Shown here: positions 2 through 52,523 of the stretch, in pieces
Layout of the letters: every line of letters begins with the position of its first letter
Numbering within the stretch: the first letter of the stretch is position 1
From: Candidatus Latescibacterota bacterium
Lineage (GTDB): Bacteria > Latescibacterota > UBA2968 > UBA8231
Assembly (NCBI GenBank): GCA_020852055.1
Contig: JADZBP010000251.1
Coordinates: forward strand, 1 to 64,000
Reading direction: 5' to 3'
Length of the DNA: 64,000 nucleotides
Notes under the pieces: generated by a model
Databases searched by the model: none
Seen by the model: only the letters and a program-made list of their open reading frames with translations
Told to the model about the DNA's origin: nothing
Translations under genes and position numbers: made by a program

Positions 2-3000
2 GGCTTCAATACGACATACGATTTCGATTATCACCTTTTCCGTTTTTCCATCTCTGACAACAGCGCAGGGAGCGCTATCGCGACCATTGAGGTTCTTGAT
101 GAATACGGAAATCCTGTTGGGTCCCCTCAGCAGATAACGCCACAGGATTTTGCAGCTTCTAACAGATATCAAGAGTTTGAATATCCCTATGCAATTAATA
201 GCACAAGACAATTCAGGTACAGGGTAACATACAACGGAAATGGTATGGGGCGAGAGCTTCGCCTGAACAAAATCAGTGCCGCAGATGAAAGGGCAAGGAC
301 CTTACTTCGGTCTCTAAACCTTCCTCCTGCATTACAAAGTGGTTTCTCCCGGTTTGACGATCATCTTCAAAAAGTCCTCAACGACCATGCAGCGTTTCCA
401 GCCCTATGGCGGCTATATGGGGCGGACGAACCGACGTTCTACCGGTTAGAGACTACTGGTTATATCGAGAACTACTTCCGTACTAGTGCCACAAATCCAC
501 GGCGGGCGATCAGTGGAATTGGCAACCAGGAATTGGGGGTGCTGGGTAGTAGAAGCGCCCACGAATTTACCCGATGGACAGATCCAGATACCTTGTTGGT
601 AGATGGGTACCCGATCGGCGATAACCCTGAACCCTTCGCGATGGCGTTGTACACGTACCCGATGGTCCTTCCAGGCCAGACCGACTATAACAACGCGCTA
701 CAAGAACGCTGGGACAAGCACCTCATACCGATCCTGTCGAGTGCACGAGACAGCAGCAAAACCTCAGTTCCAGCAATTCCGTTCTCGTACATTGCCCAGG
801 TTCATAATCACGGTACTAACCTGAGAGAGCCAACCCCCCAGGAAATCAGGGCAATGGTGTACATGGCGCTGACCTATGGAGCCAAAGGGATCTACTACTA
901 CCTCTACCTCACTATTCCCAGCGAGATCTCCACTGGGTTGGCCAGCAATATCTCCCCTTACACGACCAATGCCAAATGGTCAGAGGTCCAGTCTCTCAAC
1001 GGAGTGCTGGACAGCCTAGATACTACTCTGCTGCAACTCACCTCCACAGATGTGTTCCCCAGTTCTGCTGCGCCGCGTTCGTTTGTCCAGGGGCTTTCGG
1101 ATGCGTCCGATTTTCAGATCGGCACTTTCTCCAGAGGGGCCGACAGCTACCTGATGATTGTGAACCGCCGGTGTGCACCGGGGGATACGCGTACAGTGAA
1201 TATCACTCTGGATGCCGATAGCTTCTCGGGGACTGCCAAGGGCCAAGGGATCTACTTCCTGACGGACGCATATTCCAAAGCACAGCAGATACGCAGCACC
1301 GATATCAATGGGCAGTTCGTGCTGCGAAACATTACGCTGGCGCCTGGGGAGGGCCGGTTATTCCACATCGAGCAGAGGAATACCTGGACGGGAACGGTGA
1401 CACTGACGGGAGATCTTTCTGTCCCCGTGGGGGTGACTCTGAATATCGCGCCCTGGACGACGGTGAAATGCACTGGCAATAGCGATGACCAGGGATCGGG
1501 GTTTTTTAATACCAAGACGGAGCTATTCGTATACGGAACCTTGAGTGCCGGTAGTGTCATATTCCAATCGCAAGAGGGCGGTAGCGCAACCTGGGGTGGG
1601 ATCTACATGGTGGGCAACGGAGCCTCTCCATCGCAGACCTCTTCAGACTTGGTCTATAGCTCCATCAGTAACGCCGATTACGGCACTCTCGTTTATGAAT
1701 CCCGGTGGGGACAGACGAAGTTCCGAGGCTGCACCTATTCAAATTGCGTTTATGCTATATACTACTACAACTCCGGCGCTCCCTATATCGCCAGCGACAA
1801 CAGGACCTCGCACCAGACCATCAGCGGTAGCACCTGGGGCATCACCACCTACGGCACCACCAACGACACGATTTCCAACAGTCTCATTACCGGAAGCCAG
1901 TATCAAGGCTTTTGGGTGGGAGGCGCCAGTAACCAAATACATCTTGAGAACAACACCATCGATGCCAACGCCGGCAACGGCGCCGCAGGTGTCTTGCTCA
2001 ACGGCAACAGCTCAATCCGCGCCAAGAACATCATTGCCAGGGGACATGCCTATGGCGGCATGCAGTCTGACGGCACGGGATCGGCAGTCATAGACCGTTA
2101 TGTTTCCTACAACAACGACGTGTACGGGTACGAGTTTTCGGGCATGGGCACTAGCGCTTCCAGCCGAAAAGCCCTGTTCAGCGATCCCAGGTTCAATACC
2201 GGGGCCTATACCCTCAGCAACACCTCGCCGGCGCTGGATCTGGATTCCACTCAGACCGACTCCATCGGGGGCAGGAGAGATTTGGGACGGTACGGGGGCA
2301 CGTACCAGGCGGGTACGGCTTCGGGGGTGACAAAGTTGGAAGACTATTATGTCAATGGCGGCACCGACGGCTGGGCCAGTGTGTCTGGTAGTTGGGGAAA
2401 CAACGGCCAGGGAGACTACAAGGTTACCGGCATTGACGGCGCATCCCGATCCTGGAAGGCGGCCAACGCTACGAGTTACGCAATCGAGACGAGAATGAGG
2501 TTTTCCAGTGGCGGCCAGCAAGGGAAGGTGATCTATGCAAATGCCGACCAAAACGAAGACTTGCGCCTGGATCTGATCTATGACTACGGCCCAAGTTACG
2601 TCCGTCTTCAGACACCAACGGGTACAACCACGCTTGCACCTCCCTACTGCCCCGCCATCACTCCCAATACCTGGTACAAGGTGCGGGTAGAAGTGGTCGC
2701 CGGCTCACCCTATGTGGTAAATACCTATGTGAATGGTGTCCTTTGCCACCAAAATGTCTCTCTGGGCAGTTTGATCCCAAACGGGAAAGTAGGGGTGGGC
2801 AGTTACGGCCCGACCCATGATGCCGAGTTCGACTATGTATTGGTGCTCAATGGCGTCGGCACCCCTCCCAATAATCCGCTTCTCGAGGGCCTGGTTTCCT
2901 ATTGGCCTTTGGATAGCAACGCGAACGATGCGGAAGGGACGAATCCCAACCACGGCACAGTCTATGGGGCCACCCTCCAGGGATCGGGTAGGATTGGCGG

Positions 3001-38433: not shown

Positions 38434-39912
38434 TCAGTCCTGTTTGGGTTTGAGCAGAGAGCCGATCACCATGGCCGCCCCGCTCAGCAGATAGGCGGCG
38501 ATGCCCGAGGTGTACGGCCCGATGGCTTTGGCCGCCGCCCCATCCACCTTCTCCAGGATCAGGAAACCCAGCGGGATGGCGGCGCTGATGAAGATGGCGG
38601 CGACGGCCCCCCAACTGTTGGCCCGCTTCCAGTAGCAGCAGGCGATAAGCAGGGTGGAGATGCTGGCCAGGTAGATGGTGCCGGTGAGGGTCAGGTAGGT
38701 CCACAGATCCCCCTCCAGTTGGTACCACAACCCGAAGAAGAGCAGAAAGACGCCGATGGCCGCGACGATGAAGCGGTTCCAGAGGAGTCCTTTCTTGTCC
38801 GACCAGTTCTTGCGGAAGGGCGCCATGATGTCGTTGTAGATCACCCCGCCCCAGGTGAGCATGTAGGAGGAGTCGGTGGACATGTCGGCGGCCAGCATGG
38901 CGGCGATCAGCACCCCCATCAGCCCGACCGGCACGATGGTGCTCAGGAAAAGGGGCATGGCGTAGAGGGAGGGATCGTCCCTCATCTGCCCGGTCAGGCC
39001 GGCAAACATCTCGGGGGTGAGACTGGCCAGCGCGGCGATACCCCAGATCCCCGGGATCAGGAAGCGGCAGACGAAGAAGAAGGAGGTGCGGGTATAGACC
39101 TGGCGGCCGGTTTTGGTGTCCTTGGCGGCCAGCACCCGGGCGATGGAGGTCTGCCAGGTGAGCACCACGGCGGTGTTGAGGAAGAGGTTGAAGAGCAGGA
39201 AGTCCCAGCCCAGGTCCTGGTTGATGAGGGGGTTGAACCCTCCGGGCCCGATCTTTTCGGTCACCGTCGCCACCAGCCGGTCCCAGCCCACCTCGACCAG
39301 CACCAGAATGGTCACGGCGATCAGGCCGATACTCATCACCACGAACTGCAAAAAGTCGGTGATCAGCACCGAGAGCATGCCGCCCATGATGGTGTAGGCG
39401 GCCACCCCCACCAGCAGGATGGTCATGGTGATCTCCAGGTTGCCGGGATTCAGGCCGCAGGTGACCACCAGGAATTCGCCGCCCACCCGCAGGAAGACCC
39501 CCATGTTGAGCAGGCCGCCCAGCACGATCACCACCCCCGAGAGCCAGCGCACGAAACTGCCGAAACGCTGCTCCAGCAGTTCGGGGATGGTCATCACCCC
39601 TGAGTCGCGCAGGGGCTTGATACAGAAGCCGGTGTACCCCACGATGAACATGGCCGCCGCATTGAGCAGGCCGGGGGTGGCGCCGGCAAAGCCGTACTTG
39701 TAGCCGTTCTGGGCGGTGTACATACAGGTGACGATGCCGAATTCGGTGGCCGCCAGTGAGGCGATGCCCAGGTACACGTTCATCTCGCGGCCGGCCACCA
39801 GGAAGTCCTCGACCTTGCCCACATATTTGCGCACCGCCACCCCGGCGATCATGGTCGCCAGCAGGTACAAGCCGACGATGCTGCCGTCGATGGCCCAGTT
39901 GAAATGTGTCAA
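38434..39912 (-). CDS. Sodium:solute symporter (SSS) family transporter
   Basis: A 492-residue integral membrane protein of about 13 helices in the inner membrane. Family features include the start NWAIDGSIVGLYLLATMIAG, the conserved region AATEFGIVTCMYTAQNGYKYGFAG and MLAADMSTDSSYMLTWGGVIYNDI, which holds the sodium-site serines and threonines of helix 8. Members take up sugars, sialic acid, amino acids or vitamins with Na+. It is the fourth of five genes in the operon with an Asp-box protein and two dehydrogenases, so a sugar acid or related carboxylate is the likely cargo. Confidence 0.93.
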   Translation of the reverse strand: MTHFNWAIDGSIVGLYLLATMIAGVAVRKYVGKVEDFLVAGREMNVYLGIASLAATEFGIVTCMYTAQNGYKYGFAGATPGLLNAAAMFIVGYTGFCIKPLRDSGVMTIPELLEQRFGSFVRWLSGVVIVLGGLLNMGVFLRVGGEFLVVTCGLNPGNLEITMTILLVGVAAYTIMGGMLSVLITDFLQFVVMSIGLIAVTILVLVEVGWDRLVATVTEKIGPGGFNPLINQDLGWDFLLFNLFLNTAVVLTWQTSIARVLAAKDTKTGRQVYTRTSFFFVCRFLIPGIWGIAALASLTPEMFAGLTGQMRDDPSLYAMPLFLSTIVPVGLMGVLIAAMLAADMSTDSSYMLTWGGVIYNDIMAPFRKNWSDKKGLLWNRFIVAAIGVFLLFFGLWYQLEGDLWTYLTLTGTIYLASISTLLIACCYWKRANSWGAVAAIFISAAIPLGFLILEKVDGAAAKAIGPYTSGIAAYLLSGAAMVIGSLLKPKQD

Positions 39913-39978: not shown

Positions 39979-41568
39979 TCAGTGATCGACGACCAGACCG
40001 CCGCCGGTGACCCGCAAGCGCAGGATGCGGGTGTCGGGCAGGCCGGGTTCGACCATGTGGCCCATGTACACCACCAGCACCACGTCGGGTTCCACCTCCA
40101 GGGCCTGGTGGTTGGCCCACTGCGGATAATCGATGATGGTGCCTGCATCCCAGTTGAGGCCCCCGTCGTAGCTCAGGTGGGCGCACAGGTGGGGGAAGCG
40201 GGTGATGGCCACCAGGGCGCCGCTGGTCGTGCGGGTGAGGCTGATGCAGTATCCGGGGAAAGCGGCGTGAGCCGCCGGCTCCCAGCTTTTGCCCCCGTCC
40301 AGGCTGCGCACCTCCCACATCTGCGGCCAGGGTCCGGGCCGGCCGTAGCCGATCACCTGGTTGGGGGCGCTTTCGGCCAGGCCGATCTCGGAGAGATTGG
40401 CCGGGCAGGACCACTGGGGCGCCGGGTTGGCCGGGTTGAGCGGGTTGTTGCGGTCGCAGCGCACCGGCGCCGCCCAGGTGCGGCCCTCGTCAATGCTGCG
40501 GAAGGCGAAGTTAGTGGCCAGGCCGTCGGGCAGTACGCAGTAGGCCGAGACCAGCAGGGCCCCGCTTTTGAGCCGCAGAGGCCGGCCCGAAGGATAGGCC
40601 GGGGCGGAAAACTCGGTGGGCCACCGGCCCTTGACCTTGAGGGGTTGCCCTTTGCTCCAGGTGCGGCCCTCGTCCTTGGACTCGTAGGCCAGCAGCGCCC
40701 GCTGGCGGGGGACCTTGCTCTCGCCGCCGTGTACACAGACCCAGGTGCCGTCGGCGCGCACGAAGGGGGCGCCAAAGCCCTGGGGCAGGGTCGCCGGGCG
40801 GGGGGCGGACCAGGTGCGGCCGGCGTCGTCCGAGGCGACGGTCACCGCCCGCCGGATCTCGCCGCGGTTGGGATTGCCGAAGGGGACCTGCACTGTCAGC
40901 CGGCCCGTCTTGCTCTGGAGGATGCTGGGGTAGCTCTGGTACGCGTCGGCCTCGGTTTCGGGGCAGGGGGTGAGCCAGTGGGCCGGGGGTGGGTTGAGCC
41001 CTTTCCAGGCCGATGGGCCGACCTGGGTGCCCTCCACCTCCAGGCCGGCGAAGTGGGGGGTCTTCTTCACGGCAGTGACCGTGGCCATCAGGCCCACCCG
41101 GCCGCGCGCCAGGGTGTGATCCTCCACCTGCAGGGCCAGCCGGCCTTCGATCCAGGCGCTGATCTGTGCGCCCCGGCATTCGAGGCGGGCGGTGTACCAG
41201 CGCTCGTGTTCGGGGCAGACCCCGGGGACCATGCGAAACTGGAGGTAACGCTGCAGCGGCGCCCCGTTGGCCAGGGAGATGCCGGCCCAGAGGTGGCGGT
41301 TGCGGTTCTGTTGGCCGCACCAGGGGATGTCGAGGGCGTAGTAGTGCTGCAGATCCTGCAGGCGGAAGAGCAGGCGTACCCCGCCGAAGTGGGCGCGGAA
41401 CTTGAAGCGGAAGGTGGCGGAGAGGTCCGTGTACTCGCCAGTGCGCAGAACGGCGGCGTATTCCTTGCCGCCTCCCTCGGGGGGCCGCAGCTGGCCCTGG
41501 GGGCCGTCGGTCCAGTGGCCGTTGAAAAAAGCCCACTGTCTGCCGCTGCCGATCTTCATCCCTGCCAT
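39979..41568 (-). CDS. Asp-box (sialidase-fold) protein with N-terminal LamG-like domain
   Basis: A 529-residue protein. The ATG at 41568 has an AAGGA site eight bases upstream. The N-terminal ~190 residues form a concanavalin-like domain (TFRFKFRAHFGGVRLLFRLQ, then YYALDIPW). The rest is a six-bladed sialidase-type propeller with five clear Asp boxes: SDDAGRTW, SKDEGRTW, SIDEGRTW, SLDGGKSW and SYDGGLNW. No signal peptide is present, so it probably acts in the cytosol on an imported compound. It lies between an MDR dehydrogenase and the SSS symporter. The full arginine triad of true sialidases could not be confirmed. Confidence 0.88.
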   Translation of the reverse strand: MAGMKIGSGRQWAFFNGHWTDGPQGQLRPPEGGGKEYAAVLRTGEYTDLSATFRFKFRAHFGGVRLLFRLQDLQHYYALDIPWCGQQNRNRHLWAGISLANGAPLQRYLQFRMVPGVCPEHERWYTARLECRGAQISAWIEGRLALQVEDHTLARGRVGLMATVTAVKKTPHFAGLEVEGTQVGPSAWKGLNPPPAHWLTPCPETEADAYQSYPSILQSKTGRLTVQVPFGNPNRGEIRRAVTVASDDAGRTWSAPRPATLPQGFGAPFVRADGTWVCVHGGESKVPRQRALLAYESKDEGRTWSKGQPLKVKGRWPTEFSAPAYPSGRPLRLKSGALLVSAYCVLPDGLATNFAFRSIDEGRTWAAPVRCDRNNPLNPANPAPQWSCPANLSEIGLAESAPNQVIGYGRPGPWPQMWEVRSLDGGKSWEPAAHAAFPGYCISLTRTTSGALVAITRFPHLCAHLSYDGGLNWDAGTIIDYPQWANHQALEVEPDVVLVVYMGHMVEPGLPDTRILRLRVTGGGLVVDH

Positions 41569-41583: not shown

Positions 41584-42603
41584 TTAGGCGCCGGCTCCGT
41601 TCCATTCCAGGATCACCCCCATGGCCCGGGAGCGGTCTGCCCGCAGCGCGGCGTAGATACCCGGCGCCCCGGTGTAGGGCAGGCGGTGGCTGATCAGCGG
41701 GGCAATCTCCAGCTCCCCGTCGGCCACCAGGTCGAAGAAGAGTTCGGCGTGTCGGGGCTGGGTCCAGGGCTGGTCTGCGGTCGCCTGGCCGGGGTGCGAG
41801 GAGTTGTGGGCGCCGATGATGGTGTAAGAAGGCGAGTTGCACAGGTCGTGGAAATCGAAGAGCGGCGTGGGGCCGCGCGGGCTGCTCAGCAGCACCATCC
41901 GCCCCTGCCGCCGCAGCAGGGCGAATTCGCCGGGGATGGCCTCGGGGTTGCCGGTCAGCTCGAAGACCACGTCGGCCAGGCGGCCGTGGTTGAGGCCCTC
42001 GACCCTGGAAGCCAGGTCGCCGGTCGCCGGGTCGAGCCCCGCCACGCGGGGCAGGCGGGGCAGCAGGGCCAGGCGGCTGGCAGCCACGTCCACCCCGATC
42101 ACCAGGGCGGCCCCGGCCAGGCGGCACAGCCGCACCACCAGCTGCCCCAGCAGGCCCAGGCCGTACACCGCCGTGACCTCACCCCAGGTCACCTGGCCCC
42201 GGCGCACCCCGTTCATGGCGATCTCGGCCAGGGTGAAGAAGGCGGCCTCTTCGTCGGGGATCTCGCGGTGCACCGGGCGCAGGGAAGTGGGCCGGCCCAG
42301 CACATAGGCGGCGTGGGCGGCATAGGAGGCCACCCTGCGGCCCAGCCAGGCGCGGTCCACCTCGGGGCCCACCTCCACCACCTCGCCGATATGGTCGTAC
42401 CCGGGCACAAAGGGGAAACGGCCGTAGTCGGCCCAACGGGATTGGGGCGGGAACTGGCCGTTGAGGATGGTTAGCTCGGTGCCGGTGCTGATCAGGGTGC
42501 GGCGGGTCTGGATCAGCAGTTGGCCGGCGGTGGGCACGGGCAGAGGGCGGTCCTCGACGGCCACCTGTCCGGGAGCGGTGAAGACCACGGTCGGGTTGCG
42601 CAT
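41584..42603 (-). CDS. Zinc-type medium-chain (MDR) dehydrogenase
   Basis: The ATG at 42603 (MRNPTVVFTAPGQ), with AGGAGA seven bases upstream, is the real start; 339 residues. The GroES-like N-terminal part includes STGTELTILNG and VPGYDHIGEVVEVGPEV. The Rossmann nucleotide fold is marked by AVYGLGLLGQLVVRLCRLAG. The usual catalytic Cys-Gly-His of zinc ADHs is replaced by ISTGTE, as in the sorbitol-dehydrogenase-like/BchC-type subgroup. It would oxidise a sugar-like alcohol with NAD(P). It is second in the five-gene operon. Confidence 0.9.
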   Translation of the reverse strand: MRNPTVVFTAPGQVAVEDRPLPVPTAGQLLIQTRRTLISTGTELTILNGQFPPQSRWADYGRFPFVPGYDHIGEVVEVGPEVDRAWLGRRVASYAAHAAYVLGRPTSLRPVHREIPDEEAAFFTLAEIAMNGVRRGQVTWGEVTAVYGLGLLGQLVVRLCRLAGAALVIGVDVAASRLALLPRLPRVAGLDPATGDLASRVEGLNHGRLADVVFELTGNPEAIPGEFALLRRQGRMVLLSSPRGPTPLFDFHDLCNSPSYTIIGAHNSSHPGQATADQPWTQPRHAELFFDLVADGELEIAPLISHRLPYTGAPGIYAALRADRSRAMGVILEWNGAGA

Positions 42604-42614
42604 GTCTTGTTCTC

Positions 42615-43637
42615 CTAGGCCAACTGCGCCCAACGAGTCAGGTCCACCCGGCCGGGCACGGGCCGGCGCTGGAAGAAGGCCTCCAGGGCCAGCAGGGTGT
42701 ACTCGCCGATGCGGTGGTAGCCGTACTGGCCGGCGCCGGAGGTATGCGGGGTGATCACCACGTTCTCCAGGGCCCGCAGCGGGTGGTCGGCGGGCAGGGG
42801 CTCGGGATCGGTGACATCGAGCTGCACCAGGATACGCCCGGTGCGCGCCTCGGCCAGCAGGGCCTCGTGGTCGAGCACGGCGCCGCGCGAGGTGTTGACG
42901 AAAACCGCCCCGTTGCGCAGCAGGCCCAGTTGGCGGGCGCCGATGAGGTGGTAGGTCTCGGGGATCTTGGGGGCGTGCACCGTGACCATGTCGGCCCGCC
43001 GGAAGGCTTCGTCCAACTCCACCTTCTCCACCCCCAGCCGGCCGGCCTCCCAGTCGCTGAGAAAGGGATCGTAGACCAGGATCTGCACGTCGAAGGGCTG
43101 CAGCAGGCGGATCACCTCGCGGCCCACGGTGCTGGCGCTGATCAGGCCGATGGTGGCCCCGCGCAGGAACTGGCCGGTCTTGGGCAGGCCCGGGTCGAGC
43201 CAGAGCCCCTTCTCGCGGATGTTGCGGGCGTGTGTGAACCACTGCCGGCACATGGCGATCAGTGCCCCCACGGTGTGTTCGGCCACGTTGAGGGCGATGG
43301 CGCCGTTGGCGCTGGCCACGCAGAGCTGGCGCGGGATCAGCTCGCCTTCGACCTGCTCGGGGGTGAAGAGGTGTTTCACCGAGCCGGCCGAGTGGGCGAC
43401 GATCTGCAGCCGCCCCGCCCGCTGCAGGGCCGCCGGGGTCAGGGGCGGGGTGCCCCAGCCGGTCACCACCCCGTCGAACTGGTGGAGGCCTTCCTCGACC
43501 TGCTGGGCGCTGAGGCCGCCGGGGCCGGGGTTGATGGTCAGGGCGAAGTTGTCGAGCAGGCGCTGGTAGACGGCCGGGGCAAAGACGGTGCGGGTATGGT
43601 TGGGGGCGGGCAGGTACCAGATGGCGGGCAGGCTCAT
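42615..43637 (-). CDS. D-isomer-specific 2-hydroxyacid dehydrogenase
   Basis: The ATG at 43637 (MSLPAIWYLP) follows a ribosome-binding site (AGGAG) and is preferred to the extended track frame; 340 residues. The NAD-binding core GATIGLISASTVGREVIRLL departs from GxGxxG (Gly replaced by Ser/Ala). The catalytic triad is visible: Arg in VNTSRGAVLDHEALL, Glu in DVTDPEPLP and His in VITPHTSGAG. It interconverts 2-hydroxy and 2-oxo acids. It is first in the operon and transcribed from the divergent promoter region shared with the ABC importer. Confidence 0.92.
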   Translation of the reverse strand: MSLPAIWYLPAPNHTRTVFAPAVYQRLLDNFALTINPGPGGLSAQQVEEGLHQFDGVVTGWGTPPLTPAALQRAGRLQIVAHSAGSVKHLFTPEQVEGELIPRQLCVASANGAIALNVAEHTVGALIAMCRQWFTHARNIREKGLWLDPGLPKTGQFLRGATIGLISASTVGREVIRLLQPFDVQILVYDPFLSDWEAGRLGVEKVELDEAFRRADMVTVHAPKIPETYHLIGARQLGLLRNGAVFVNTSRGAVLDHEALLAEARTGRILVQLDVTDPEPLPADHPLRALENVVITPHTSGAGQYGYHRIGEYTLLALEAFFQRRPVPGRVDLTRWAQLA

Positions 43638-43667: not shown

Positions 43668-43696
43668 AGAGTAGGCAAAAATGTGGGGCCGGTCAA
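43668..43696 (-). promoter_or_regulatory. Promoter of the dehydrogenase-Asp box-symporter operon
   Basis: On the minus strand TTGACC (43691-43696) and TACTCT (43668-43673) are 17 bp apart; transcription would start near 43661, about 25 bases before the ATG. Its -35 forms an inverted repeat with the -35 of the divergent ABC operon promoter. Confidence 0.6.
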
Positions 43697-43701
43697 TCAT
43701 G

Positions 43702-43730
43702 TTGACACCGGTGGGGGGGGGCGATAACTT
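43702..43730 (+). promoter_or_regulatory. Promoter of the ABC importer operon with a G9 tract in its spacer
   Basis: A perfect -35 TTGACA (43702-43707) and a -10-like TAACTT (43725-43730) are 17 bp apart. The spacer contains nine consecutive G (43713-43721). Slippage in that tract would change the spacing and thus promoter strength. The -35 is the right half of the palindrome GTCAA-TCATG-TTGAC shared with the opposite promoter. Confidence 0.6.
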
Positions 43731-43760
43731 AGGGCCTCTTCTCAACCCTGAAGGGGAAGC

Positions 43761-44765
43761 ATGAACTGGGGATACGCGCTCAAGCGGTTTGCCCTGTTCC
43801 TGGTGGTGATCTGGGCGGCGGCCAGCGTCAACTTCTTCATCCCGCGCCTGGGCACGGGCCGCGATCCCATCCGCGAGAAGCTGGGCCAGCTGGCGGCCAG
43901 CGGCGGCCTGCGGCAGGAGGGGATCGAGGAGATGGTGAAGGCGTACCAGGCCAAGTTCGGCCTGGACAAACCCCTCTACGTCCAGTACCTCAATTACCTG
44001 GGCGACCTGCTCACCCTCGATCTGGGATACTCGCTGGCCAACTACCCGGCCCGCGTCAGCCAGATGATCGCCAACGCCATGCCCTGGACCCTGGGCCTGC
44101 TGCTGGTTTCCACCCTCATCAGTTTTGGTTTCGGCACCCTGGCCGGCGCGCTGGTGGCCTGGCCCCGCTCCCCGCGTTTCCTGCAGGCGCTGGTGGTGCC
44201 GCTGATGACCCTGTCGGCCATTCCCTACTATCTGCTGGGCCTGGTCCTGCTCTACGTGCTGGGGCTGCAGTTCAAGCTCTTCCCCCTTTCGGGTGGATAC
44301 GCCCCCGGCACCCTGCCGGGCTGGGACCTCGACTTTGCCCTTGAGGTGCTGCATCATTCGCTGCTGCCGGCCCTCTCCATCGTGCTGGCGGCGGTGGGCT
44401 TCTGGGGCTTAGGCATGCGCGGCATGATGGTCAGCACCGTGGGTGAGGACTACATCGCCCTGGCCGAGGCCAACGGCCTGAGGGATCGCACCATCTTCCT
44501 GCGCTATGCGGTGCGCAACGCCTTCCTGCCCCAATTCACCGCCCTGGGCCTGTCCCTGGCCAATGTGGTGGCCGGCCAGGTGCTGGTGGAGGTGGTCTTC
44601 GCCTACCCTGGGGTGGGCACCCTGCTCTTCCAGTCCATCCAGTCCTCCGACTACACGGCCATCAACGGGGTGGTCTTTGTCATCATCCTCTCCATCGGCC
44701 TGATGACCATGCTCATGGACTTCCTCTATCCATTGCTCGACCCGCGTATCTCCCACCGTCGCTGA
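43761..44765 (+). CDS. Dipeptide/oligopeptide-type ABC importer permease 1 (DppB-like)
   Basis: A 334-residue permease with about six membrane helices. The start FALFLVVIWAAASVNFFIPRL is typical of DppB/OppB, and the cytosolic EAA loop is visible in EDYIALAEANGLRDRTIFLRYAVRNAFLP. It pairs with the next permease, which starts on its stop (TGATG). Such systems import peptides, nickel chelates or oligosaccharides; the Asp-box neighbours favour a carbohydrate-like cargo. First gene of an eight-gene operon. Confidence 0.94.
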   Translation: MNWGYALKRFALFLVVIWAAASVNFFIPRLGTGRDPIREKLGQLAASGGLRQEGIEEMVKAYQAKFGLDKPLYVQYLNYLGDLLTLDLGYSLANYPARVSQMIANAMPWTLGLLLVSTLISFGFGTLAGALVAWPRSPRFLQALVVPLMTLSAIPYYLLGLVLLYVLGLQFKLFPLSGGYAPGTLPGWDLDFALEVLHHSLLPALSIVLAAVGFWGLGMRGMMVSTVGEDYIALAEANGLRDRTIFLRYAVRNAFLPQFTALGLSLANVVAGQVLVEVVFAYPGVGTLLFQSIQSSDYTAINGVVFVIILSIGLMTMLMDFLYPLLDPRISHRR

Positions 44766-45622
44766 TGGCACGCCTGCGCTCCTTCCTCTATTACCTGCGC
44801 GAGAACCCCAAACTGGGCATTGGCCTGGGCATGATCGGGGCCCTGCTGCTCTTCGGGGTGGTCGGCCGGCTGCTGGTGGACCCGGGTATGGCCCAGCCCC
44901 TGTCCACCGCCCCGCGCCAGGCGCCCTCGTGGGCCCACTTCTTTGGCAGCGACGATGCCGGCCGCGATCTGTTGACGGTGATGGTGGTGGGTATGCCGCT
45001 GACCATCCGGGTTGGCTTTGTGGCCGGCGGGGTGGGGCTGGGGTTGGGGGTGCTGCTGGGGTTTGTCAGCGGGTACCTGGGCGGCAGGATCGACACGATC
45101 ATCCGCGGCACCGTGGATACCCTGCTCACCGTGCCCAGCCTGGTGGTGCTGATCTCCATCGCCTCCACGGTGCGCGAGGAGATCAGCATCGAATTGATGG
45201 CCCTGGTGGTGGCCTCCCTCTCGTGGATGTGGCCCACCCGCACCATCCGCGCCCAGGTGCTCACCCTGCGCGAGCGGGCCTACGTACAAATGGCCAAGCT
45301 CAACGGCATGAGCACCTTCGAGATCATCTGGAAGGAACTTTTCCCCAATCTGCTCCCGTACCTGGCGGCCAGTTTCGTCGGCGCCGTCTCCTGGGCCATC
45401 CTCGCCACCATCGGCCTGGAGGCCCTGGGCCTGGGGCCGCAGAACGAACCCACCATGGGCATGACCATCTACTGGGCCATCACCTTCAGCGCCCTGATCC
45501 GCGGCATGTGGTGGTGGTGGGCCATCCCCATCGCCTTCCTGGTGCTGCTCTTCGTGGGGCTTTTCCTGGTGGCCGCCGGCCTCGACGAATTGGCCAACCC
45601 CAAACAGCGGCAGGCGGTCTGA
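44765..45622 (+). CDS. Dipeptide/oligopeptide-type ABC importer permease 2 (DppC-like)
   Basis: A 285-residue partner permease. FGSDDAGRDLLTVMVVG is the family's N-terminal signature (HxxGTDxxGRDxxSR type), and the EAA loop is in ERAYVQMAKLNGMSTFEIIWKELFPNLLP. About six helices. Its stop overlaps the ATPase start (TGATG), so translation of the cassette is coupled throughout. Confidence 0.94.
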   Translation: MARLRSFLYYLRENPKLGIGLGMIGALLLFGVVGRLLVDPGMAQPLSTAPRQAPSWAHFFGSDDAGRDLLTVMVVGMPLTIRVGFVAGGVGLGLGVLLGFVSGYLGGRIDTIIRGTVDTLLTVPSLVVLISIASTVREEISIELMALVVASLSWMWPTRTIRAQVLTLRERAYVQMAKLNGMSTFEIIWKELFPNLLPYLAASFVGAVSWAILATIGLEALGLGPQNEPTMGMTIYWAITFSALIRGMWWWWAIPIAFLVLLFVGLFLVAAGLDELANPKQRQAV

Positions 45623-46581
45623 TGGCCACCCCTCTGCTGGAGATCGAGGAGCTGCAGGTCCACTTCGAGACCCGCCGCGGCGTGGCGCGGGCCGTCAACA
45701 AGGTGGATCTGACCCTGTACGCCGGCGAGCGTTTCGGCCTGGTGGGCGAGTCGGGCAGCGGTAAGACCACCTTGATTCTGGCGCTTTTGCGCATGATCAA
45801 GAAGCCCGGTTTCATCGCCGGCGGCAAAGCCCTCATGGAGGGCACCGATCTCTTGCAGTTGGATCAGGAGCAGGTGCGCCGGACCCGCCTGGCCAAGGTG
45901 GCGATGATCCCGCAGGGGGCGATGAACTCCCTCAATCCGGTGATGCGTGTCGGTGAGCAATTGGCCCTGGCCATGCGCGAGCACGACCAGCCGCCCGCCG
46001 AGGGGCGTATCGCCGAACTGCTGCAGCAGGTGGGCCTGCGGCCCGAGGTGAGCCAGCGTTATCCCCATGAACTCAGCGGCGGCATGAAGCAGCGGGTGTG
46101 TATCGCCCAGGCCATCTCGCTCAGGCCGCGCCTGATCCTGGCCGACGAGCCCACCAGCGCCCTCGACGTGGTGGTGCAGCGCCAGATCATGCAGACCTTG
46201 CGCGCCCTGCAGGAAGGGTTGGGCGCTACGGTGCTGCTGGTGGGCCACGACATGGGGCTGATGGCCCAGTTCGCCCAGCGCCTGGGTATCATGTACGGGG
46301 GCAAGCTGGTGGAGGTGGGTCCGGTGGAGCAGATCTTCCGCAATCCGCAGCATCCCTACACCCAACTGCTGATCGCCAGCATCCCGTCGTTCGACCGGAA
46401 GGGGGAGTTCCGGGGCATTCCGGGGGTGGGGCTCTCGCTGCTCAACCCGCCGGGAGGTTGCCTCTTCCATCCGCGCTGCCCCAAGGCCCTGCCCCGCTGC
46501 GCCACCCAGGAACCCCGGCTGCGGGAGGTGGGGCCGCAGCAGCAGGCCTCGTGTCTGCTGTACGAAGAGGCTGGGGCATGA
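45622..46581 (+). CDS. ABC importer ATP-binding protein 1 (DppD-like)
   Basis: The track ORF has a shadow extension; the ATG at 45622 gives 319 residues. Walker A is GESGSGKTT, the signature LSGGMKQRVCIAQAI, Walker B LILADEPTSALD and the switch His in VGHDMGL. The C-terminal oligopeptide/dipeptide transporter domain with cysteines (GGCLFHPRCPKALPRC ... SCLLYE) is present, as in DppD/OppD, where it binds an iron-sulfur cluster in some members. Stop and next start overlap (ATGA). Confidence 0.95.
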   Translation: MATPLLEIEELQVHFETRRGVARAVNKVDLTLYAGERFGLVGESGSGKTTLILALLRMIKKPGFIAGGKALMEGTDLLQLDQEQVRRTRLAKVAMIPQGAMNSLNPVMRVGEQLALAMREHDQPPAEGRIAELLQQVGLRPEVSQRYPHELSGGMKQRVCIAQAISLRPRLILADEPTSALDVVVQRQIMQTLRALQEGLGATVLLVGHDMGLMAQFAQRLGIMYGGKLVEVGPVEQIFRNPQHPYTQLLIASIPSFDRKGEFRGIPGVGLSLLNPPGGCLFHPRCPKALPRCATQEPRLREVGPQQQASCLLYEEAGA

Positions 46582-47600
46582 GTGTGCTGCTGGAGGCGCG
46601 CCAGGTGCGCAAGGTTTTCCACACCGGCAGCGGCATGTGGGGCGCCGCGCACGAGAACGTGGCGGTGGACGGGTTCTCGCTGTGTCTCAAGGACGACGCG
46701 CCGGCCTTCATCACCATCGCCGGGGAGAGCGGCAGCGGCAAGACGACCATTGCCCGGCTGCTCCTGGGTTTTGCCGAGCCCTCCGGCGGCCAGGTGCTCT
46801 ACCGGGGCAAGGATCTGCGCGAGCTGGATCGGGCCGGGCAGAAGCAGTTTCGCCACGAGGTGCAGGCCGTCTTCCAGGACCCTTTCGAGGTGTACAATCC
46901 CTTCTATAAGGTGGACCACATCCTCGAAATCCCCATCGCCAAATTCAGGCTGGCCTCCTCCGCGGCCCAGGGCCGGCAGTTGATGGAGGAGGCCCTGCAG
47001 GCGGTGGGCCTGCGCCCCGAGGAGACCCTGGGCCGCTACCCCCACCAGCTTTCGGGGGGCCAGCGCCAGCGCATCACCATCGCCCGCGCCCTGCTGCTCA
47101 AACCCCGGCTGGTCATCGCCGACGAGCCGGTCTCGATGGTCGACGCCTCGCTGCGGGCCACCATCCTCGAAAGCCTGCACCGGCTGCACCGCGACTTTGG
47201 CATCTCCTTCGTGTACATCACCCACGACCTGACCACCGCCTATCAGGTGAGCCAGCGCCTGGTGGTGCTCTACCACGGCACCGTGGCCGAGGCCGGCGAG
47301 GTAGAGCAGGTGATCAGGCAGCCCCAGCATCCCTACACCCGGGAACTGATCCGCTCCATCCCGGTGCCCGACCCGGGGCAGGGGTGGATCGAGGAGCCGG
47401 TGGCCGAGAAAACCGAGGCCGAGGAGGTCCAGGTCACCACCGGTTGCCGCTACGCTCCCCGCTGCCCCCACGTCCAGCCCCGCTGCCTGCAGGCCCTGCC
47501 GCCTCTGTTCCGCACCGGGCCGCAGCGGGCCGCGGCCTGTTATCTCTACGACAGCGCGCCCCCGCTGGCCGGCGAGGACCTCAGCGCGGTGCTGGAGTAA
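46578..47600 (+). CDS. ABC importer ATP-binding protein 2 (DppF-like)
   Basis: The ATG at 46578 gives 340 residues. Walker A GESGSGKTT, signature LSGGQRQRITIARAL, Walker B LVIADEPVSMVD and switch His in YITHDL are intact. A DppF-type C-terminal domain with cysteines (GCRYAPRCPHVQPRC ... ACYLYD) follows. It forms the ATPase heterodimer with the preceding gene product. Confidence 0.95.
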   Translation: MSVLLEARQVRKVFHTGSGMWGAAHENVAVDGFSLCLKDDAPAFITIAGESGSGKTTIARLLLGFAEPSGGQVLYRGKDLRELDRAGQKQFRHEVQAVFQDPFEVYNPFYKVDHILEIPIAKFRLASSAAQGRQLMEEALQAVGLRPEETLGRYPHQLSGGQRQRITIARALLLKPRLVIADEPVSMVDASLRATILESLHRLHRDFGISFVYITHDLTTAYQVSQRLVVLYHGTVAEAGEVEQVIRQPQHPYTRELIRSIPVPDPGQGWIEEPVAEKTEAEEVQVTTGCRYAPRCPHVQPRCLQALPPLFRTGPQRAAACYLYDSAPPLAGEDLSAVLE

Positions 47601-47639: not shown

Positions 47640-49445
47640 ATGCAATCCTTCCTGCCGCTCCTCTTCGCCCTGGGTCTGTGGGCCTGCGGCGGCGGTTCTG
47701 CCGACAAGTCCCCGCAGGGGGACGAGTCCCCGCAAGGGGAGCAGCCCGCCCAGCCGCGCAACGCCGGCCCCAGCCAACTGCGGAAGGTGCCGCGCAACCA
47801 CACCCTGATCATGGACTGCGTGGATTACAACACCTGCGCCGGCCAGATCAAGGACTACGCCTCCTTCAACCCCTATGTGCCGGGCCAGGCCTCGCGCACG
47901 GGGTATCAGTTTGAGTACGAGCCCCTCTACTTCTACAACGCCTACGCTTCGCAGGACACCCTGATTCCGTGGATCGCCGAAAGCCACCAGTACAACAAAG
48001 ATTTCACCGAGCTGACGGTGAAGATCCGGCCGGGGGTGCAGTGGAGCGACGGGGTGGCGTGGACCGCGCAGGACCTGGTGTTCACCATCAACATGCTCCG
48101 CGACCACGCGCCGCTGCTGCTCTTCTCGACGGACATGAAAAACGCGGTGCAGGAGGCGGTGGCGGTGGACGACCTGACCGCCCGTATCACCCTGAGGGCG
48201 CCCAATCCGCGCTTTCTCTTTTCCTACTTCGCCCACAACTTCGATAACGGCGTGCCCATCGTGCCCAAACACATCTGGGAGGGGCAGGACCCGGAAACCT
48301 TCGCCAACTTCGACCGCGACCGGGGCTGGCCGGTGGTCAGCGGTCCCTACCAGCTGGCCCTGTCGGTGCCGGAGCAGCGTATCTGGGATTTGAGAAAGGA
48401 CTGGTGGGCGGCGCAGAGCGGCTTCAGCCCGCTGCCGCAGGTGGAGCGCCTCATCTTTCTGCCCTACCTCGAGGACGCCAAGCGGGTGCAGAACCTGATC
48501 GCCAATCTGATGGACACCTGCGTGGACATGCGGCCGCCCAATATCAAGTCGGTGCTGGACGGCAACCCGCAGGTCACCACCTGGTCGGGCCGCGAGTTGC
48601 CCCACGGGTACCTGGACTGGTGGCCGGTCTGCCTGGGCTTCAACGATCTGGAGCCCCCCTTCAACGACCCGCAGGTGCGCTGGGCCATAGCCCACGCCAT
48701 CGACCGCAAGCAGCTGGTGGAGGTGGGCTGGCAGGGCAGCGGTTCCTATACCCTGCTGCCCTTCCCCGACTTTCCGGCCCTGCGCAAGTACACCGGCCAG
48801 ATCCAAGATCTGATGGAGAAGTACCCGGTGGGCCAGTACGATCCGCAAGAAAGCGCCCGGATCATGCAGGGCCGGGGCTACGCCAGGGACGCCGCAGGGT
48901 TCTGGGCCAGGGGCGGGCAGCGGGTCCGGGTGGTCATCGACATCTTTCCCCTTTTCCAGGACCTGATCCCGGTGCTGGTGACCCAGCTGAAGCGGGCCGG
49001 CTTCGACGCCGACTTCCGCAACACCTCCGACTCCTACGACCGCATGTCGCAGGGCACGGCGCGGGCCTTCATGAACGGCAATGGCGGGGCGGTGCGCGAT
49101 CCCTACTTCACCCTGCGCCTGTACCACAGCCGCTTCGTGCAACCCACCGGCACGGCCACCGAATACTTCTGGCGCTGGAAGAACCCCGAGTTCGACCGCC
49201 TCGTCGACGAGATGAAGGGCACCGACCCCGAGGACCCCAGGAACCAGGCGCTCTTCCGGCAGGCCATGGAGATCTGGCTGCGCGAGCTGCCCTCCATCCC
49301 GCTGGTGCAGTGGTACCACCGGATGCCGCACAACCAGACCTACTGGACCGGCTGGCCCAGCGCCGAGGACCCGTACATCAACACTGCCTACTGGCACCGC
49401 ACCTTTTTGCTGCTCCTGCTCAGGCTGCGGCCCGCCCAAGGATAA
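47640..49445 (+). CDS. Solute-binding lipoprotein of the ABC importer (family 5), copy 1
   Basis: A 601-residue extracytoplasmic binding protein. The lipobox is LFALGLWAC, with lipidation at Cys16, followed by a short repeated linker (SPQGDESPQGE). The SBP_bac_5 fold follows: KIRPGVQWSDGVAWTAQDLVFTINML, NGVPIVPKHIWEGQDPE, VSGPYQLA, and VRWAIAHAIDRKQLVEVGWQG. Cargo is unknown. It has a closely similar paralogue two genes downstream. It stands 39 bases after the DppF-like gene. Confidence 0.94.
   Translation: MQSFLPLLFALGLWACGGGSADKSPQGDESPQGEQPAQPRNAGPSQLRKVPRNHTLIMDCVDYNTCAGQIKDYASFNPYVPGQASRTGYQFEYEPLYFYNAYASQDTLIPWIAESHQYNKDFTELTVKIRPGVQWSDGVAWTAQDLVFTINMLRDHAPLLLFSTDMKNAVQEAVAVDDLTARITLRAPNPRFLFSYFAHNFDNGVPIVPKHIWEGQDPETFANFDRDRGWPVVSGPYQLALSVPEQRIWDLRKDWWAAQSGFSPLPQVERLIFLPYLEDAKRVQNLIANLMDTCVDMRPPNIKSVLDGNPQVTTWSGRELPHGYLDWWPVCLGFNDLEPPFNDPQVRWAIAHAIDRKQLVEVGWQGSGSYTLLPFPDFPALRKYTGQIQDLMEKYPVGQYDPQESARIMQGRGYARDAAGFWARGGQRVRVVIDIFPLFQDLIPVLVTQLKRAGFDADFRNTSDSYDRMSQGTARAFMNGNGGAVRDPYFTLRLYHSRFVQPTGTATEYFWRWKNPEFDRLVDEMKGTDPEDPRNQALFRQAMEIWLRELPSIPLVQWYHRMPHNQTYWTGWPSAEDPYINTAYWHRTFLLLLLRLRPAQG
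47708..47741 (+). repeat. Two 18-bp direct repeats in the lipoprotein linker
   Basis: GTCCCCGCAGGGGGAC (47708) and GTCCCCGCAAGGGGAG (47726) are near-copies with an 18-base period. Each can form a hairpin (GTCCCC/GGGGAC) and encodes SPQGDE/SPQGEQ. In-frame changes of repeat number would alter linker length only. Confidence 0.6.
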
Positions 49446-49449
49446 GCCG

Positions 49450-50742
49450 ATGGCTCCTGTCTGTTATACCGAGGACTGGCGGCGCACTGCGCCGGACCTG
49501 GTGGTCTACCTGCCGGCCCGGCCCGGCGGTCCCGACGCCGACAACGAGCACCTGATCATCAATGTTATGCCGCGCTCGGGAGAGCTGCTGGCCACCTGGA
49601 CCACCGGCACCTACGAGGCGGCCCCGGACAGCCGTACCGTCTTCAGCCACAGCCCGGATCTAGGACAAAGCTGGAGCCCGCCCCGGGTGCTGCCGGGCAC
49701 CGGTGAGGTGCCGATGCTGGGCGGGCGCTGGGGGGTCCACCTGGTCAGCCCTCAGGGGCGGGTCTATTTCTTCTTCAACAAATGCACCGGTGTCTGGAGT
49801 TTCTCCCATTCCACCGCCGGGGTGCTCTGCTGTGTCTATTCCGACGACGAGGGGCACACCTGGCAGGAGGGCGGGCAGTTGCCGGTGCGCCGGCGCCCCC
49901 GCTACGACCATCCCGACCCGCAGGTGCCCAGCGAGTGGATCATCTGGCAACCCGCCCTGCGCGACGCCCGGGGGCGCTGGATCGTTGGGCTGACCCGCTG
50001 GAGCAGCCTGGAGCGTTTCCCCCGCCCGGCCTCGGGCCAGGTGGTGTACGACGCCCGCTGCGAATTGCTGCGCTTCGACAACCTCGACGACAACCCCCAC
50101 CCGCGCGACCTGCAGCTGACCTGGCTGCCCGAGGAGGATGCCATCGGGGTGCCGGTGCCGGTGGAGCCCGAGCGCTCGCAGGGGTACGCCATGGCCGAGG
50201 AACCCGCCATCGTGCTGCTGCCCGACGGCCGGCTCTTCATGGTCATGCGCACCCGCACTGGCCAGTTGTGGTACACGGTGAGCGCGGACCACGGCCATTC
50301 GTGGCGGCCGCCCGAGGTCCTCTGCCAGCACGAGGGCGGCCCGCCCCTGTTGCACCCCAAATCGCCCTCGCCCCTGTACCGGCTGGAGGACGGGCGTTTC
50401 CTGCTCTTCTTCCACAACCACGACGGCACCGGGTACGGCGCCCACGGCCCGCACGATATGAACGCCCGCCGGCCAGTGTTCATGGCCCTGGGGGAATTCC
50501 GGCCCGGCTCGCACCAGCCCATCTGGTTTGGCGAACCCCGGTTGCTCTTCGACAGCCACGGGGTGGCCCTGGGCCCGGGCAACGGCACCGTCGAGGGGGG
50601 GCGCACCTGGCTGGCCCTGTACGGCTGTATCACCGAATACCAGGGGAAGCGTATCTTCTGGTACCCGGATCGCAAACATTTCCTGTTGGGCCGTTACCTG
50701 CCCGACGAACTGCTGGAAACCATGAGGCCAAGCTCCCGATGA
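49450..50742 (+). CDS. Asp-box (sialidase-fold) protein
   Basis: A 430-residue propeller protein without a signal peptide. Asp boxes SPDLGQSW, SDDEGHTW and SADHGHSW are visible, plus propeller strands such as EEPAIVLLPDGRLFMVMRTRTGQLWYTVS, typical of exo-alpha-sialidase-like and BNR proteins in glycan-using bacteria. Starting four bases after binding protein 1 and overlapping binding protein 2 (ATGA), it is embedded in the importer operon. I infer a cytosolic enzyme acting on the imported compound; the bond cleaved is unknown. Confidence 0.88.
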   Translation: MAPVCYTEDWRRTAPDLVVYLPARPGGPDADNEHLIINVMPRSGELLATWTTGTYEAAPDSRTVFSHSPDLGQSWSPPRVLPGTGEVPMLGGRWGVHLVSPQGRVYFFFNKCTGVWSFSHSTAGVLCCVYSDDEGHTWQEGGQLPVRRRPRYDHPDPQVPSEWIIWQPALRDARGRWIVGLTRWSSLERFPRPASGQVVYDARCELLRFDNLDDNPHPRDLQLTWLPEEDAIGVPVPVEPERSQGYAMAEEPAIVLLPDGRLFMVMRTRTGQLWYTVSADHGHSWRPPEVLCQHEGGPPLLHPKSPSPLYRLEDGRFLLFFHNHDGTGYGAHGPHDMNARRPVFMALGEFRPGSHQPIWFGEPRLLFDSHGVALGPGNGTVEGGRTWLALYGCITEYQGKRIFWYPDRKHFLLGRYLPDELLETMRPSSR

Positions 50743-52523
50743 AACGAGCGCGGGCGCCCTTCGGCCTGCAGCCGGCGCATTGCTGGTTGCTCTCCTTTCT
50801 CGTCCTGAGCCTGTGGGCCTGTGGCGAGCCGCAGGGGGAGGTGGAGGTGCAGGGGCTCAAGCAGGTGCGGCGCAACCGCACCCTGATCATGGACTGCGTG
50901 GACTACAACAACTGCGCCGGCCAGATCAGGGACTACGCCTCCTTCAACCCCTACGTGCCCAACCAGGCCTCGCGCACGGGGTATCAGTTCGAGTACGAGC
51001 CCCTCTATTTTTACAACGTCTATGGCGCGCAGGACACGCTGATTCCCTGGATCGCGCAGAGCCACCAGTACAACGCCGACTACACCGAGGTGAGGGTGAA
51101 GATCCGGCCGGGGGTGAAGTGGAGCGATGGGGTGGGGTGGACCGCGCACGATTTGGTGTTCACTATCAATATGCTCAAGGACCATGCTCCGGCCCTGATG
51201 TTCTCGACCGACATGAAGAACTGGGTGAAGGAGGCGGTGGCCGAGGACGATTTGACCGCCCGCATCACCCTGAGGGCGCCCAACCCGCGCTTCCTCTTTT
51301 CCTACTTTGCCCACTGCTTCAGCAACGGGGTGCCCATCGTGCCCAAACACATCTGGGAGGGGCAGGACCCGGAGACCTTCACCAACTTCGACATGGAGAG
51401 GAACTGGCCGGTGGTGAGCGGACCGTACCGGTTGGCCTAGTCGGAGCCGGCCCGGCGGGTCTGGGATCTGCGGGCGGACTGGTGGGCGGCGAAAAGCGGC
51501 TTCAGCCACTTGCCGGCGGTCGAGCGGGTCATCTTTCTGCCCTACCTCCAGGACGCCAAACGGGTGCAGAACCTGATCGCCAATCTGATGGACACCTGCG
51601 TCGACATGCAGCCGGCCAATATCCGCGCCATCCTCGACGGCAACCCCCAGGTCACCACCTGGTCGGGCCGCGAACTGCCGCACGGGTACATGGACGGCTG
51701 GCCGGTGTGTCTGGGCTTCAACAATCTGGAGGCGCCCTTCAGCGACCCGCAGGTGCGCTGGGCCATCAACTGCGCCATCGACCGCCAGCAACTGGTGGAG
51801 GTGGGCTGGCAGGGCAGCGGTTCCTATACCCTGCTGCCCTTCCCGGATTTCCCGCCGCTGCGCAGCTTTACCGGGCAGATCCAGGACCTGATGGAGCAAT
51901 ACCCGGTGGGCAGATTCGATCTGCCGCAGAGCGCCCGCCTCATGCAGGCCAGCGGTTACGCCCGGGATCGCGAGGGGTTCTGGGCCAGGGGAGGAAGAAG
52001 GATAGAGGTGCCCATCGACATCTTTCCCGGTTTCGTGGACCTGGCGCCGGTGCTGGTGAGCCAGCTCCGCGCTGCCGGCTTCGACGCCAGTTTCCGGCTG
52101 ACCGAGGATACCTACGAGCGCATGACCCTGGGGACGGCGCGGGCTTTCATGAACGGCAATGTGGGGGCGGTGCGCGGTCCCTACTTCACCCTGCAGCAGT
52201 ACCACAGCCGCTTCGCGCAGCCCACCGGCACGGCCACCGAGAACTTCTGGCGCTGGAAAAACCCCGAGTTCGACCGGCTGGTGGATCAGATGAGTGAGGT
52301 TCCGCACGAGGACCCGAAGCTGAGGGCGCTCTTCCGGCAGGCCATGGAGATCTGGCTGCGCGAGCTGCCCTCCATCCCGCTGGTGCAGTGGTACCACCGG
52401 GTGCCGCACAACCAGACCTACTGGACCGGCTGGCCCAGCGCCGAGGACCCGTACATCAACACCGCCTACTGGCACCGCACCTTTTTGCTGGTGCTGCTCA
52501 GGCTGCAGCCCACCCAGGGCTGA
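50739..52523 (+). pseudogene. Solute-binding lipoprotein copy 2, interrupted by an in-frame amber codon
   Basis: This is a paralogue of the binding protein at 47640, colinear over its whole length (594 codons). It starts at the ATG at 50739, overlapping the Asp-box stop, with a lipobox FLVLSLWAC. At 51438-51440 a TAG stands where copy 1 has CTG (VSGPYRLA-stop-SEPARRVWDLR against VSGPYQLALSVPEQRIWDLR). The frame continues intact to 52523 with every downstream motif kept, so there is just one stop and no frameshift. TAG ends other genes here, so it is not reassigned. Either a recent nonsense mutation, a sequencing error or readthrough; the N-terminal fragment alone would not fold into a full binding protein. 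Confidence 0.85.

Follow-up and report, generated by a model that had tools for sequence, protein, structure and literature searches.

Comparative analysis of predicted back-to-back sigma-70-type promoters, one with a G9 spacer tract, in a Latescibacterota bacterium

In Neisseria the promoters of porA and fetA carry a homopolymer between the -35 and -10 boxes (PMC5320596, citing van der Ende 1995 and Carson 2000), and for fetA the account given there describes a tract that ranges from C10 to C14 between strains, with expression following its length (PMC5320596). A variable combined promoter region was described for Haemophilus influenzae as well, where the divergent fimbrial promoters of hifA and hifB meet (van Ham 1993, as cited in PMC5084427). 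A further type of divergent transcription is represented by the bidirectional promoters of E. coli, which share a pseudo-symmetrical -10 region, start transcription at points 10-23 bp from each other, are bound by polymerase in a mutually exclusive manner, and show competition that was of consequence only if one of the two sides was strong (PMC12825309).

We have analysed a pair of divergent promoters at positions 43668-43730 of the window, that is, of the whole 64,000-nt stretch of contig JADZBP010000251.1 under study. The contig belongs to a 333-contig assembly of 5.63 Mb, and the nearest named relatives of this genome include Candidatus Handelsmanbacteria and Latescibacterota assemblies. 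Genome statistics were derived from 292 kb of samples and from pattern searches, and the congeners were compared by means of five genomes of the genus, one genome per species. A previous sequence-only reading had described two promoters sharing a -35 palindrome, with a G9 tract in the 17-bp spacer of the importer promoter, and had suggested that this tract could switch the whole importer operon on and off among cells. The boxes, the spacings, the G9 tract and the palindrome that it named match the DNA base for base (Table 1). The minus promoter is predicted to drive a dehydrogenase/symporter operon leftward, and the plus promoter an oligopeptide-type ABC importer operon rightward; the first permease gene of the latter has orthologs in three congeners that are 95-96% identical. 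The BNR-repeat genes of the two operons were not matched by any gene in the syntenic stretches retrieved for four congeners, and both look as if they had been inserted in the source lineage. A second family 5 binding-protein gene (50740-52523), 77% identical to the first copy over its full length, contains an in-frame TAG at 51438-51440 and is thus either a pseudogene or the site of a sequence error.

Table 1. Coordinates of the promoter elements, of the flanking genes and of the other promoters with an apparently non-coding G9/C9 spacer run
Feature	Position	Strand	Remarks
Importer -35 box TTGACA	43702..43707	+	invariant in 4 genus members; most family members have TTGAC[A/G]
Importer spacer, 17 bp, CCGGTGGGGGGGGGCGA	43708..43724	+	sequence not kept in relatives
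G9 tract within importer spacer	43713..43721	+	G7 in G002; absent in G003 and G004
Importer -10 box TAACTT	43725..43730	+	relatives: TACCTT, TAGCTT, TAGTTT
Dehydrogenase-operon -35 box TTGACC	43691..43696	-	TTGAC[C/G] across 4 genus members
Dehydrogenase-operon spacer, 17 bp	43674..43690	-	17 bp in 4 of 4 species
Dehydrogenase-operon -10 box TACTCT	43668..43673	-	invariant in 4 species
Inverted repeat GTCAA-TCATG-TTGAC	43692..43706		formed by two opposed -35 boxes
D-2-hydroxyacid dehydrogenase family gene, minus operon gene 1, ATG at 43637	42615..43637	-	Pfam PF02826
Zinc-binding dehydrogenase	41584..42600	-	Pfam PF08240/PF00107
BNR-repeat protein	39979..41568	-	Pfam PF13088
Sodium:solute symporter family protein	38434..39912	-	Pfam PF00474
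ABC importer permease 1, oligopeptide-type, plus operon gene 1	43761..44765	+	Pfam PF00528
ABC importer permease 2, oligopeptide-type	44765..45622	+	Pfam PF00528
ABC importer ATPase 1, oligopeptide-type	45622..46581	+	Pfam PF00005/PF08352
ABC importer ATPase 2, oligopeptide-type	46578..47600	+	Pfam PF00005/PF08352
Family 5 solute-binding protein	47640..49445	+	Pfam PF00496
BNR protein within the plus (importer) operon	49450-50742
Promoter with apparently non-coding G9/C9 spacer run, contig C80	1259-1287	-
Promoter with apparently non-coding G9/C9 spacer run, contig C97	6627-6654
Promoter with apparently non-coding G9/C9 spacer run, contig C270	2881-2910

The strict sigma-70 scan, with a threshold of 9 matches in 12, found no promoter at this site, because both -10 boxes agree with the E. 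coli consensus at only three of six positions; phylogenetic footprinting was used in its place. The divergent pair is present in four of the five genus genomes (our own, G002, G003 and G004), and the comparison demonstrated that the -35 and -10 boxes of both promoters are kept in all four. The minus promoter has the form TTGAC[C/G]-17-TACTCT in each of them, and the plus promoter joins TTGACA to TAACTT or TACCTT over 17, 18, 17 and 17 bp, respectively. In the family the importer promoter fits TTGACn-(16..18)-TAnnnT in 13 of 18 orthologs, where Markov-simulated upstream sequences predict 0.07, though these orthologs share ancestry and the 13 matches are not 13 independent events; twelve of the 13 have a spacer of exactly 17 bp. 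The same spacing rule was observed elsewhere in the genome: with the locus omitted, TTGACn-x-TAnnnT occurs 4, 9 and 6 times in the 292-kb sample at x = 16, 17 and 18 and 0-2 times at other spacings, the control hexamer pairs showed no comparable spacing peak in this sample, and genome-wide TTGACn-17-TAnnnT was found at 205 sites versus 47 for the reversed control. An alternative importer -10 box (GATAAC/AATAAC at 15/16 bp), which scores best against the E. coli consensus, was ruled out, since the TA[AC]CTT register is common at 17 bp to G003, G004 and the genus g7. With hexamers 16-18 bp apart that are conserved before orthologous genes, both divergent promoters are, as judged from the comparison of sequences, evolutionarily conserved promoters of the sigma-70 type, and the earlier proposal of two genuine promoters serving the dehydrogenase and the importer operons is backed by this conservation. 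The comparison also gives a promoter rule, TTGACn-16..18-TAnnnT, that can be put to use in this uncultured lineage.

Regarding the geometry of the pair, the gap between the opposed -35 boxes is 5 bp in our genome and in G002, and 15 bp in G003 and G004; the 10-bp difference between these species pairs is about one helical turn. Transcription is predicted to start near 43737 (+) and 43661 (-). Given the size of RNA polymerase footprints, two polymerases are unlikely to bind at -35 boxes that are 5 bp apart, so both promoters probably cannot be occupied at once, and the two operons would compete by mutual exclusion of their polymerases. Other back-to-back TTGAC pairs occur in the genus (G000 C86:21067-21133, C191:24902-24968 and C101 near 15670), with -35 gaps of 9-17 bp and spacers of about 17 bp on both sides. 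They have the same opposed -35 layout as the pair studied here, but lack a homopolymer of at least 7 in their spacers and serve different genes. Since such pairs recur in the genus, the architecture is a local habit and not a unique device. Among the pairs at C86 and C191 and their orthologs in G001, G003 and G004, some are apparently conserved from species to species, though with unequal gaps (15 versus 9 bp).

The length of the importer spacer is held within one base over the four species and its sequence is not: CCGGTGGGGGGGGGCGA (our genome, 17 bp), GCGGGGGGGCCGCCGCAA (G002, 18 bp), CAGGCAGTGGGCCGTGA (G003, 17 bp) and AGGGCAAGACGCCGTGA (G004, 17 bp). The G9 tract that had been placed in the 17-bp spacer is indeed there, and its turnover can be followed directly in the comparison, from G9 in our genome through G7 (as G7CC) in G002, the nearest relative, to none in G003 and G004. 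Selection would act on the length of the spacer, not on its sequence, the G9 being a lineage-specific, G-rich filling. Similar tracts precede genes for tRNA-Thr, a DHH/RecJ-like protein, pterin dehydratase, and regulators of the MerR and CsoR types, a metal-sensing repressor among them; the tRNA-Thr(TGT) promoter, TTGACA-17-TAGTCT, has a G7 spacer in two species (G000 C145 and G004 C163). Twelve ortholog groups of tract promoters were compared, in which both members were required to have a run of at least 7 and spacers of 7 to 26 bp were admitted, so that changes of spacing were detectable despite this ascertainment. Spacer length was equal in ten groups, and in four of these ten the tract length differs while the total is kept (e.g. 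ATCGAT-G9-AA versus ATCGGAT-G8-AA). The remaining two groups, the importer locus being one of them, differ by one base in spacing. A clean one-base difference in tract length separates G004 C4 from G001 C51, in two close species, with G8 versus G7 in the spacer and flanks that are 97% identical, and in several groups the tract length is constant over three or four species.

Long G/C runs are under-represented in the genome: its 5.63 Mb contain about 49 distinct runs of at least 9, and the 292-kb sample has 3 runs of 9 versus 17 expected. The window holds no such run besides the G9 of the importer spacer, compared with 9.4 in dinucleotide shuffles. The argument that the G9 is special because it is rare was nevertheless rejected: the run is rare genome-wide, yet of the 48 G9+ runs that could be classified, 33 fall in DNA that appears coding and 15 in DNA that appears non-coding, a split made with a heuristic codon-usage classifier. 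Four of these 15 G9/C9 runs sit in promoter spacers that follow a perfect TTGACA, whereas position alone would predict about 0.1 (an estimate from the sampled promoter density). Promoter spacers of the source genome hold 13 G/C runs of at least 7, and over the five genomes TTGAC...G7...TAnnnT has 32 matches and its C7 form 12, against 3 and 3 for the reversed controls, nearly all of these roughly 44 sites having spacers of 16-19 bp. Among the first 100 of the 205 sites with 17-bp spacing, five spacers contain a G run of at least 7, compared with 0.7-2.0 expected, depending on the composition model. Homopolymers in promoter spacers therefore seem somewhat over-represented; no other finding speaks more strongly for a switch, and some effect of the tract is conceivable.

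Among the other explanations, joint control of both operons by a dimeric repressor or activator bound to GTCAA-N5-TTGAC is highly improbable. An inverted repeat necessarily arises wherever two TTGAC boxes oppose each other, and the boxes alone account for the symmetry; the repeat is simply these two boxes, and the shared palindrome proposed earlier is their by-product. Since the gap is either 5 or 15 bp, the palindrome itself is not kept, and the arms of a dyad operator, whose sequence and spacing should both be preserved among orthologous promoters, are spaced here by 5, 5, 15 and 15 bp. The identity of the repeat in two species would suit an operator, and so would the overlap of GTCAA-N5-TTGAC with the importer -35 box in G009, where the dehydrogenase gene is not alongside, as well as the roughly 2.4-fold excess of GTCAA upstream of TTGAC promoters over the reversed control in five genomes (82 versus 34). 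However, the GTCAA-N5-TTGAC pattern is not enriched genome-wide (5 sites versus 14 for the reversed control pattern), and no regulator was seen among the scanned genes adjoining the pair. The 10-bp shift of the arm spacing and the count below control ruled out the operator as the main reading. In G010 the region upstream of the importer carries a direct repeat (GATCAAGTTTGAnATCTG) that overlaps the place matching the GTCAA-N5-TTGAC of G009. It is distinctly unlikely that the importer promoter is phase-variable in the manner of porA and fetA, with slippage of the G9 altering the -35/-10 spacing and switching or strongly modulating the importer among cells. A homopolymer of switch-prone length does lie wholly within the spacer of a real promoter, the nearest relative differs there by one base, G9/C9 runs recur in several other spacers of the genome, and the G001/G004 pair shows that such tracts can change by one unit between close orthologs. 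Nevertheless, of the four species two have no tract and a third has a G7 with an 18-bp spacer, spacing is kept in ten of the 12 ortholog groups, and genes such as those of tRNA-Thr, the RecJ-like protein and the regulators would hardly be switched, which makes a switch unlikely. The genome possesses a MutS gene, so hypermutability is not expected. Furthermore, the promoters of this genome use spacers of 16, 17 and 18 bp, so a slip of one base in either direction falls within the functional range and should tune, not switch, transcription. The comparison with relatives thus makes phase variation of the importer less likely, and it does not support an on/off switch of the operon.

The over-representation of tracts could also mean that G-rich spacers have a function in the promoters of the genus and are not a slippage device. 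G-rich spacers could act by stiffening or twisting the spacer, or by weakening a strong -35 box. The approximately 44 sites against 6 reversed controls, and the several groups in which three or four species share one tract length, point in this direction; on the other hand the excess above spacer composition is just about 2- to 7-fold and varies with the null model, most promoters of the genome do without such tracts, and two of the four species have none at the importer locus. We consider this explanation unlikely, although it is compatible with the one that we prefer. Very unlikely, in our judgement, is a broader proposal, in which Handelsmanbacteria-type genomes would have a promoter class with G7-G9/C7-C9 spacer tracts, their position kept by selection for total length; prone to slippage, these tracts would fine-tune many genes, the importer included, as a form of bet-hedging by +/-1 bp. 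The preferred explanation, to which we assign a probability of about three in four, is that the pair consists of ordinary sigma-70-type promoters in a back-to-back arrangement, that the G9 is a lineage-specific filling of a spacer selected for its length, and that the effect of slippage would be modest at most: rare slippage of the G9 would produce a spacer of 16 or 18 bp, both of which are normal in this genome, and would presumably change promoter strength only mildly. A homopolymer in a promoter spacer proves little by itself, as in this GC-rich lineage such tracts are also placed before a tRNA gene and a recJ-like gene, and changes in the tract mostly leave the total spacing as it was. Another product of the comparison is a small set of spacer tracts at which slippage could be measured directly from metagenome reads.

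Compared with the described systems, the importer locus resembles porA and fetA in having a G/C homopolymer inside a sigma-70 spacer before a membrane-transport gene. It differs from them in that the Neisseria tracts vary in length by strain, whereas the relatives of the importer promoter mostly keep the spacing and lose the tract, the series being G9, G7CC, none and none instead of one tract of varying length. In hifA/hifB a dinucleotide repeat affects both promoters. The likeness to that system lies in two divergent operons with intertwined promoters and a simple repeat in the shared region; the homopolymer of the importer locus, in contrast, is in only one of the two spacers and was seen at one length in the source genome. 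With the bidirectional promoters of E. coli the pair has in common divergent transcription and probably the exclusion of one polymerase by the other, but here it is the -35 boxes that face each other, the -10 boxes are separate, with 51 bp between them (43673 to 43725), and about 76 bp lie between the predicted starts.
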